Source of the DNA: Nitrososphaerota archaeon
GTDB taxonomy: Archaea; Thermoproteota; Nitrososphaeria; Nitrososphaerales; Nitrosopumilaceae
Assembly (NCBI GenBank): GCA_028867735.1
Contig: JAGWFW010000008.1
Location: 1-41,014 of the forward strand
Direction: 5' to 3'
DNA length: 41,014 bases
A program made the translations under genes and the position numbers. Numbering within the stretch: position 1 is the stretch's first letter; each line of letters starts with the position of its first letter. Shown one piece after another: positions 5,041 through 13,754 of the stretch. The notes under the pieces are model-generated. The model searched no databases and had not been told where the DNA came from. It saw nothing but the letters and a program-made list of their open reading frames with translations.

Positions 5041-5323
5041 GTGCGCGCCAGCTGTAACCCTCCTTCTGTTTTACGAGATTCAGCTATGCGGCCTACCTAA
5101 ACAAAGTGCAGCGCTTATTGTTTGATTTGGCCTTTCTCCATGTGGTACAGATTTTTCATTCCTTTACCGGGAATCTCAGGCATTGCCATCACAGTACGCC
5201 CCAGTTCGGATAGGTTTCTGTTCTGTTGCCAGTCATCTCTGACTATCCGTCTCCGGATCACATTTGCTGCATGGAGGGAGGAGTTTCCTCTGCCGAAGCA
5301 GCGCCTCATTCACCGGCTCGCAC
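5041..5323 (-). ncRNA. rnpB: RNase P RNA
   Basis: Minus strand has CR-I-like GAGGAAACTCCTCC (near 5290) and CR-V-like ACAGAAGGAGGGTTAC (5069-5054). These form P4: AAC[U]CCUCC pairs with GGAGGGUU (8 bp with bulged U). Termini pair as P1: GUGCGAGCCGG with CUGGCGCGCAC (one A-G mismatch). TATA-like box CTAAAATAG lies 27 nt upstream of the predicted 5' end. Length about 283 nt, archaeal size. Confidence 0.9.
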
Positions 5324-5345
5324 TATACCAAAGTCAGCCAAGATT

Positions 5346-5354
5346 CTATTTTAG
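5346..5354 (-). promoter_or_regulatory. TATA-like box A for rnpB
   Basis: Minus-strand CTAAAATAG centred about 27 nt upstream of the predicted RNase P RNA 5' end (5323). Confidence 0.6.
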
Positions 5355-5367
5355 CATTAGCAATATC

Positions 5368-7698
5368 CTACATTTTTGGTTCAAAATAGTCTTCGTGAGG
5401 AGTTGCCCCTTTCCTAGACTTGACCATTCCATAAGCCATGCGATATATTTTGTAAATAAAGCGGTTTTCCTTAAGTCTTGGGGCAATTACACTCCAAAAA
5501 TACCTAGCCCTTATTTTTGAAAACCTGGAATCACGTACTACAAATACACTGTATTTTGATTTTTCAACAATTGCCAAGGTCTTTGGGCTAAACGCCTGCT
5601 CGGGTTGATTCCCGGCCCCAACTATGACGATTTCAGGATCCTGGTTAAGATTACGCAATAGATCTTTGGTTACGTCCATGCTTGTAGGATAGATTCTTTC
5701 AACTGGAACTTTTTTCAGATCAAGATCAAACATTTTTTCGTTTATTCTGCTCAAGATGTCCCGTTCTTCTTCAGGTGATTCGACAACGCCCCTTACGATC
5801 CGTATCTTGCTATTCATTGAATTTGAAAAAGAGTTTGCTATTTCAAGCCCAAGATCAGAGTGCCTTCCCTTGTCATATGCAACAACAATGTGCGAGAGCT
5901 CCTTTTCAAATTCTTTTTTGATGTTTACTCCCATAATATCACATGTGGTAAGAGAGAGAAGCTTTCTGTTGTTTTTGAGATCATAGAAATCCATCACAAG
6001 AAGATTGATTCCTTGCTCTTCGGCAGTAGCAAGGATTGCCTCGGTTGTATCATGTGACAGCCTTACAAGATATCTATATTCCGAGAATCCGGGTTTTGTC
6101 TTCAGATCGTCAAAAGACTTCATGACCGGCTCGGCAAATCCATGAGCCATGGAAAGCGGAATCTGTATTGGTATTGTTGCCACATTCAGCAGAGATATTT
6201 CACCATCCTTTGATTTGGCTATTGATGATGCAATGGTAACAAGCTTTTCAATTGTTTTCTTGTTGAATACTACCATTATGCGATAATCTTTTCGCTGTTG
6301 CGGGCCAATGTTTGCAACAAGAGGCGCATAGTGCTCTATCTCTTTTTTTGCAATATATAGTTTGTATATTGAAAATCCTATCAATATCCACACTATAGCT
6401 ATTGCCCAGCTAATCGGATTGTATATCAAAAGAAATATTGCAAGACCAGCCTTGGCAAAAATCCCTATCAACGGCATGAGAGGAAACACTGGGATCTTGA
6501 ATCCATAGTCAAGCTTGTGCCCATAGAGTCTCCGGATGTTTATTCCTGCCCAGTTAACCTGTGTGAAAAGAAACAGGAACATGACTCCGGCCACAAGTGC
6601 CAGCTGCTCCAGAGGGAGCCAGGTTGCCATTATCAGCATGATAAAGCCAGAAGCTATGATTGCAAAATGCGGCGTGTGGAATTTTGGATGTATTGAACTG
6701 AATATGTATGGAAGGTTGTACTGCCTCCCCATGGCAAACGATACCCTGCTTGAAGAAAATGTGGTTGCACTCAGTGCTGCAATGCTTGACACCAGTCCGC
6801 CTACAAAGACAAGGATAGTGCCATACGGTATCAGATATTGTGCGGCTTTTCCAATTCCCAGGTCTTGATAGCCTCCTATGTACTGCCATACTTCAGTTCC
6901 AACCACGTCTGGCTTTAGCCCTCCAACAAAGACAAACGTAAACACGACATAGAGCGCCGTTACCACCCCAAGCGCTATGAAGATTGCCTTTGGTATGTTC
7001 TTCTTTGGATTTTTTACTTCTTCTCCTGTTTGTACAATTATTTCGTATCCCTCAAATGCGATGTAGGTAATTCCCATTGCCAAAATGAACCCGGTCATCC
7101 CGTGAGGTACAAAATTATGAAAGTTTTCGGCCCAGTTTGGATTGACAAAACCCAGGGCGAACAGGCCAGACACTATGAGAATTACAATTATTACAAGCTG
7201 AGCAATTGTAAGTCCGTTTCCCACGCGTCCTGTCAGCGATACTCCCCGATAGTTTACATATGTGAATATCACTATTGACGCCACCGCGATTATTTTTCCC
7301 AGAGGAATACCGCCATATTCCGGTGCAACGCCCAGGCTTGTAAGCAAACTGCCAAAAAAATCTCCGATTGAAACCGCATACAAGCTTCCTGCAATCATAT
7401 GCCCAAACCAGGCAATCCATCCACTGATGAATGCGTTTGGTCTTGGCAGTCCTTCTTTTACCCACCTGTAGCCGCCTCCTGCCTCTGGAAAGGCAGACCC
7501 GAGTTCGGCATATGTCAGTGCGGTAAAGAAACTTACAACGCCGCTTATTGCAAAAACAATGATAAGAGAAGGTCCTGATTCATTCATGGCAGGTCCTACC
7601 AAGTTAAAGATGGCCCCGCCTATCATAGCAGCAATTCCAATCATGGTTATATCCAGCAAAGATAGGCTGCGGACTAGCCCTGAATGCTCAGTTGTCAT
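5368..7698 (-). CDS. APC-superfamily amino acid permease with C-terminal UspA-like domains
   Basis: 776 aa; N-terminal APC motif 'LSLLDITMIGIAAMIGGAIFNLVGPAMNESGPSLI', about 12 TMs, then a soluble region of about 300 aa with USP features ('YRIMVVFNKKTIEKLVTIASSIAKSKDGEISLLNV', 'HIVVAYDKGRHSDLGLEIANSF', 'IVIVGAGNQ'). Confidence 0.9.
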   Translation of the reverse strand: MTTEHSGLVRSLSLLDITMIGIAAMIGGAIFNLVGPAMNESGPSLIIVFAISGVVSFFTALTYAELGSAFPEAGGGYRWVKEGLPRPNAFISGWIAWFGHMIAGSLYAVSIGDFFGSLLTSLGVAPEYGGIPLGKIIAVASIVIFTYVNYRGVSLTGRVGNGLTIAQLVIIVILIVSGLFALGFVNPNWAENFHNFVPHGMTGFILAMGITYIAFEGYEIIVQTGEEVKNPKKNIPKAIFIALGVVTALYVVFTFVFVGGLKPDVVGTEVWQYIGGYQDLGIGKAAQYLIPYGTILVFVGGLVSSIAALSATTFSSSRVSFAMGRQYNLPYIFSSIHPKFHTPHFAIIASGFIMLIMATWLPLEQLALVAGVMFLFLFTQVNWAGINIRRLYGHKLDYGFKIPVFPLMPLIGIFAKAGLAIFLLIYNPISWAIAIVWILIGFSIYKLYIAKKEIEHYAPLVANIGPQQRKDYRIMVVFNKKTIEKLVTIASSIAKSKDGEISLLNVATIPIQIPLSMAHGFAEPVMKSFDDLKTKPGFSEYRYLVRLSHDTTEAILATAEEQGINLLVMDFYDLKNNRKLLSLTTCDIMGVNIKKEFEKELSHIVVAYDKGRHSDLGLEIANSFSNSMNSKIRIVRGVVESPEEERDILSRINEKMFDLDLKKVPVERIYPTSMDVTKDLLRNLNQDPEIVIVGAGNQPEQAFSPKTLAIVEKSKYSVFVVRDSRFSKIRARYFWSVIAPRLKENRFIYKIYRMAYGMVKSRKGATPHEDYFEPKM

Positions 7699-13680: not shown

Positions 13681-13754
13681 TGGGATCGGCCGGATTTGAA
13701 CCGACGACCTCAGGTACCCAAAACCCGAATCATGCCAAGCTAGACCACGATCCC
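13681..13754 (-). tRNA. tRNA-Pro (anticodon TGG)
   Basis: Reverse complement GGGATCGTGGTCTAGCTTGGCATGATTCGGGTTTTGGGTACCTGAGGTCGTCGGTTCAAATCCGGCCGATCCCA folds as a cloverleaf: 7-bp acceptor GGGATCG/CGATCCC, anticodon loop TTTGGGT, T-loop GTTCAAATC. No intron and no encoded CCA. Confidence 0.95.

Follow-up and report, generated by a model that had tools for sequence, protein, structure and literature searches.

Transfer RNAs are trimmed by the enzyme RNase P, whose RNA part is encoded by the rnpB gene. In the window analysed here, a continuous stretch of 41,014 nucleotides of archaeal DNA, the two motifs from which the core of that RNA is built lie on the minus strand beneath two predicted open reading frames, and one base pair of the core is exchanged relative to Escherichia coli. 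This arrangement raises the question of whether the locus is a functional rnpB gene or a set of protein-coding genes, and of whether the exchanged pair is a peculiarity of one lineage or a form of variation that the ribozyme core generally tolerates.

An archaeal rnpB gene on the minus strand

As the original prediction had proposed, an archaeal RNase P RNA gene occupies 5041-5323 on the minus strand; it is genuine, complete and present in a single copy. A covariance-model search of the window returned a match to RF00373 (RNaseP_arch) at 5321-5043 with a score of 170.5 bits (E=5e-49), about twice the curated threshold of 84, that covers the full model from 1 to 288; the gene ends in Table 1 lengthen this Rfam core (5043-5321) by two P1 pairs. 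It is the sole RF00373 match in the source genome (1.65 Mb in 266 contigs), an assembly that is 84.7% complete, and no clear rnpB lies elsewhere in it, in line with a single RNase P RNA gene per genome. A search for CR-I and CR-V at the expected distance from each other gave one match in the window and none in 100 shuffles. The 5' and 3' ends of the RNA are joined by P1, in which 10 pairs flank one A.G mismatch, as predicted for a helix that closes the molecule. The minimum-energy fold is only slightly better than those of shuffles (z of -1.7) and lacks P4, a pseudoknot that is beyond the folding tool's model.

Table 1. Positions of rnpB, its core elements and the neighbouring features in the window
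Feature	Position	Strand	Basis or remark
rnpB, archaeal RNase P RNA	5041..5323	-	RF00373, 170.5 bits; P1 read from sequence
P1 5' strand, GUGCGAGCCGG	5313..5323	-	sequence, Rfam alignment
CR-I, GAGGAAACUCC, P4 5' strand	5290-5280	-	Rfam alignment, motif pattern
C68	5283	-	E. coli numbering
Bulged U69	5282	-	E. coli numbering
CR-V, ACAGAAGGAGGGUUA, P4 3' strand	5069-5055	-	Rfam alignment, motif pattern
G358	5058	-	E. coli numbering
P1 3' strand, CUGGCGCGCAC	5041..5051	-	sequence, Rfam alignment
TATA-like box TAAAATA, about -27	5347..5353	-	congeneric upstream regions
Spurious ORF inside rnpB, 64 aa	5115..5309	-	no Pfam match; congener sense frames with stops
Spurious antisense ORF over rnpB, 132 aa	5122..5520	+	no Pfam match
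ORF of 417 aa	ends 5013	+	flanks rnpB
Amino-acid permease gene	ends 5368	-	flanks rnpB; weak Usp match

Under E. coli numbering, CR-I and CR-V of the window pair as A66-U360, A67-U359, C68-G358, C70-G357, C71-G356, U72-A355, C73-G354 and C74-G353, giving eight pairs and the bulged U69, which is exactly the P4 helix first written for this locus. The E. coli M1 RNA (rnpB, RF00010), on whose annotated 377-nt sequence the numbering was checked (A66 A67 G68 U69 C70 C71 / G356 G357 C358 U359 U360), has the same CR-I/CR-V core and the same bulged U69, but carries G68-C358 where the window carries C68-G358. The window thus lacks the bacterial-type pair at this position, and the difference is compensatory, with the flanking pairs and U69 intact. 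The archaeal RNase P RNAs of RF00373 resemble the window over the full length of the model, from CR-I to CR-V and including P1 and P4 with its bulged U69, whereas the model consensus at 68-358 is g/c in lower case and the window has C-G. In the Infernal convention a lower-case consensus letter denotes weaker conservation. In the RNase P/MRP consensus, CR-I has no fixed base at positions 67-68, such that variation at 68 would already be allowed; a literature search for a CR-I consensus string with 67-68 open found nothing. The Methanocaldococcus jannaschii RNase P RNA resolved by cryo-EM likewise has the catalytic pseudoknot, in which the uridine of P4 lies close to the 5' end of the tRNA; that structure is from another archaeal lineage, and the available text of its description makes no mention of a 68-358 swap (PMC6565675).

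Upstream of the RNA, the TAAAATA box anticipated in the original prediction lies 24-30 nt from 5323. The window and all 14 congeners shown have this box, amid sequence that is mostly divergent among them. Conservation of the box within variable surroundings is as would be expected for an archaeal promoter, and the rnpB of the window is presumably transcribed.

The two ORFs, of 64 and 132 amino acids, could be taken for real genes that overlie a decayed or non-functional copy of the RNA, and they are indeed present over rnpB. Neither, however, was matched in a Pfam search of 5115..5309 (-) and 5122..5520 (+), and each sense frame is interrupted by at least two stops in all 15 of the congeneric RNAs, with one antisense frame open across the RNA in three of the 15. 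In addition, the RNA is the only copy in the genome, has a strong full-length covariance-model match, and is preceded by a conserved promoter box, all of which make a decayed copy beneath real genes extremely improbable. The ORFs had been suspected of being spurious from the outset, and rnpB is the gene at this locus. A comparable case is known from a marine study, where a euryarchaeal RNase P RNA was likewise misannotated as an antisense gene (PMC5069720).

Between positions 381 and 37108 the window also encodes SUI1, CofC, CofD and CofG (F420 synthesis), TFB, class I LysRS, ELP3 and a ribosome-biogenesis protein that has an RLI-like domain, and carries a tRNA-Pro(TGG) at 13681-13754. The presence of TFB, SUI1, CofC/CofD/CofG, class I LysRS and a type II methionyl aminopeptidase in the window shows no more than that the DNA is archaeal; its phylum is probably Thermoproteota and its class Nitrososphaeria.

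States of the 68-358 pair across archaea and bacteria

The exchanged pair had been thought unusual and perhaps specific to the lineage of the window. RNase P RNAs were searched for in 150 genomes of the window's class, 81 from across its phylum, 39 of the Asgard phylum (sampled around a Thorarchaeota genome), 41 from the phylum to which a Thermoplasmata genome belongs, and four targeted families. Only part of the matches were retrieved as sequence, and seven sequences were left unresolved by the automatic P4 finder. Among the 252 resolved archaeal sequences, for which percentages are biased by the inclusion of the targeted families, the 68/358 states are C/G in 168, U/A in 29, G/C in 28, U/G in 8, G/A in 7, and A/G and C/A in one each, with 10 sequences having a bulge-less P4.

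Within the window's order, C-G was found in 83 of 85 sequences and U-A in the other two; the other orders of the class have C-G in 19 of 24, and the rest of the phylum (n=71) has 51 C-G, 7 U-A, 6 U-G, 7 bulge-less and no G-C. Canonical G68-C358 was found in none of the 180 resolved sequences of the phylum. C68-G358 is fixed in the window's family (65 of 65 sequences) and in most other families of the phylum. G67-C359 accompanies U-A or U-G at 68-358 in families f20, f25, f40 and f4, and C-G in f8, f9, f10 and f39. C68-G358 is therefore the prevailing state of the window's order and phylum, and was probably inherited from an early ancestor. A sequencing or assembly error as the source of the swap is ruled out, as the same pair is fixed in the congeners and the order.

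Outside of the phylum the picture is more varied. The Asgard sample (n=30) is mixed, with 12 C-G, 8 G-C and the remainder in other states, and the sample from the Thermoplasmata phylum (n=42) has 20 G-C, 16 U-A, 3 C-G and a remainder of other states.

Some genomes have more than one RNase P RNA-like match. For instance, G274 has two above-threshold matches 2 kb apart on one contig (C306:3601-3893 and 5738-6031), and G154 has two on different contigs (C13:5044-5349 and C16:26196-26488). G009, which already has a strong rnpB, has a second divergent match on the minus strand (L101, C6:4875-5163) that at 81.1 bits falls just below the cut-off and may be assembly contamination.

A pattern for the swapped P4, built so as to leave out the type seen in the window, was run over 84,980 species genomes and yielded 66 stretches, about 63 of them with a complementary P4. 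Among the carriers are Desulfurococcales-type archaea, Thorarchaeota, Njordarchaeota, Thermoplasmata, mollicutes (Spiroplasma, Mesoplasma, Ureaplasma) and WOR-3. When 17 of the stretches were tested against Rfam, 14 proved to be members of RF00373, RF00011 or RF00010, with the mollicute and WOR-3 carriers confirmed by RF00011 and RF00010. Three of the 66 (L135, L152 and L156) were rejected as false, having no Rfam match and a P4 that is not complementary. In a sample of 40 genomes of the bacterial class that holds Spiroplasma, a simple finder resolved 22 of 30 sequences, 19 with G-C and 3 with C-G.

Judged from these sequences, the P4 swap is recurrent and not confined to one lineage. Its presence in every one of the 65 sequences of the window's family, set beside G68-C358 in E. 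coli, might suggest a rare lineage-specific innovation that alters the active site, but a state that is the norm across a phylum and that turns up again in Asgard archaea, in Thermoplasmata and in WOR-3 and mollicute bacteria makes such an innovation very unlikely, and the wide distribution outside the window's own archaeal group rules out confinement to it. On this one point the original prediction did not hold. Since the 68-358 pair varies across archaea and some bacteria, it is not a defining feature of RNase P RNA.

The pair nonetheless behaves as a pair. Positions 68 and 358 can pair in 81 of 88 distinct family-level haplotypes, whereas 2000 shuffles, which ignore relatedness, average 63 and never exceed 71; positions 67 and 359 pair in 93 of 93, where the shuffles, again without regard to relatedness, average 62. 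On a FastTree phylogeny with the P4 letters masked, the 68-358 pair changes at least 29 times, or 9 times if only C-G and G-C are counted, although a tree from a 280-nt RNA is weak and both the number and direction of changes are approximate. Covariation among C-G, G-C, U-A and U-G supports the pairing of P4 and marks nothing new. Taken together, it is close to certain that the window carries the rnpB of an archaeal RNase P whose CR-I and CR-V form P4, that pairing at 68-358 is needed and base identity is free, and that C68-G358 is usual in the phylum and has arisen repeatedly elsewhere.

The catalytic core and exceptions to the bulged U69

By homology with RNase P enzymes of solved structure, CR-I and CR-V would pair as P4 and position catalytic Mg2+ at the bulged U69, and the RNA, together with archaeal protein subunits, would cut the 5' leader from pre-tRNAs; position 68-358 would require pairing but no particular base identity. 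We infer that the window RNA is catalytic and that its holoenzyme has this composition. Accounts of the core place P4 within the catalytic pseudoknot and have the bulged U help to place catalytic Mg2+ (PMC6565675, PMC11221534). At positions 67 and 68 the reported metal contacts are made by phosphate oxygens of the backbone (PMC4919922), which would fit a pair at 68 that changes freely so long as pairing is kept.

Work in E. coli assigns large catalytic roles to both U69 and the position of the bulge, and mutation of U69 (U69A) lowers catalysis by its RNase P more than 500-fold (PMC11221534); the P4 bulged U is termed universally conserved in reports from 2019 (PMC6565675) and 2025 (PMC12710915). 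The archaeal survey includes 19 genomes, from three separate groups, with a bulged A in place of U69: family f34 of the window's phylum (5 of 5 resolved; L185, L330-L333), one Asgard genome (L243), and a family of the Thermoplasmata phylum (13 of 17; L282, L289, L334, L335, L337-L339, L341-L346). Within the last family, L335 has C68-G358 and its relatives have U68-A358, all beside A69, so that position 68 is paired and A69 is the bulge. A further 10 genomes, in three further groups, have a fully paired P4 from which U69 or its neighbour is missing, namely genus g83 of f38 (6 of 6; L230, L355, L356, L358-L360; GGAACCCCCUC/GAGGGGGUA), one f36 genome (L214), and one Asgard family (3 of 3; L255, L256, L347; GAGGAAAUCC/GGAUUA). 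In the U69 column of Rfam's own alignment, L185 and L335 carry an A, and L256 shows a deletion.

The A69 and bulge-less genomes each have a single RNase P RNA match. With low scores of 65-102 bits, the g83 RNAs are divergent in general. The g83 genome G212 encodes Rpp21 (E 3e-19), Rpp29 (E 5e-25) and L7Ae (E 3e-33), which speaks for the continued use of an RNA-based RNase P, with L7Ae weighing less because it is also a ribosomal protein; a crude motif search of G212 found neither Pop5 nor Rpp30, a result that is not evidence of absence. On balance, we lean towards the reading that several archaeal clades with a single recognisable RNase P RNA have, in nature, exchanged U69, a metal ligand, for A or lost it, in which case the ribozyme could work without it.

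In other RNAs, position 68 is unable to pair with 358 (L089-L091 and L099 of f7; Asgard L252, L266, L267 and L269; and L296). Here, 358 is an A or G that could pair with U69, an arrangement consistent with slippage of the P4 bulge by one nucleotide to position 68 via a U68-U69/A358 intermediate; the alternative is a plain mismatch adjoining U69. A literature search found no discussion of the P4 swap or of exceptions to U69, though older papers on the universal core may contain an earlier report.

Implications for annotation and for the ribozyme core

For the window, the annotation is corrected, with rnpB replacing two ORFs. For the phylum, C-G is the norm at a P4 pair, 68-358, that is maintained by pairing and not by base identity. 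If the exceptions to U69 are true, RNAs that naturally have A69 or lack the bulge would make it possible to test directly how archaeal protein subunits, or other changes, compensate for the missing uridine.
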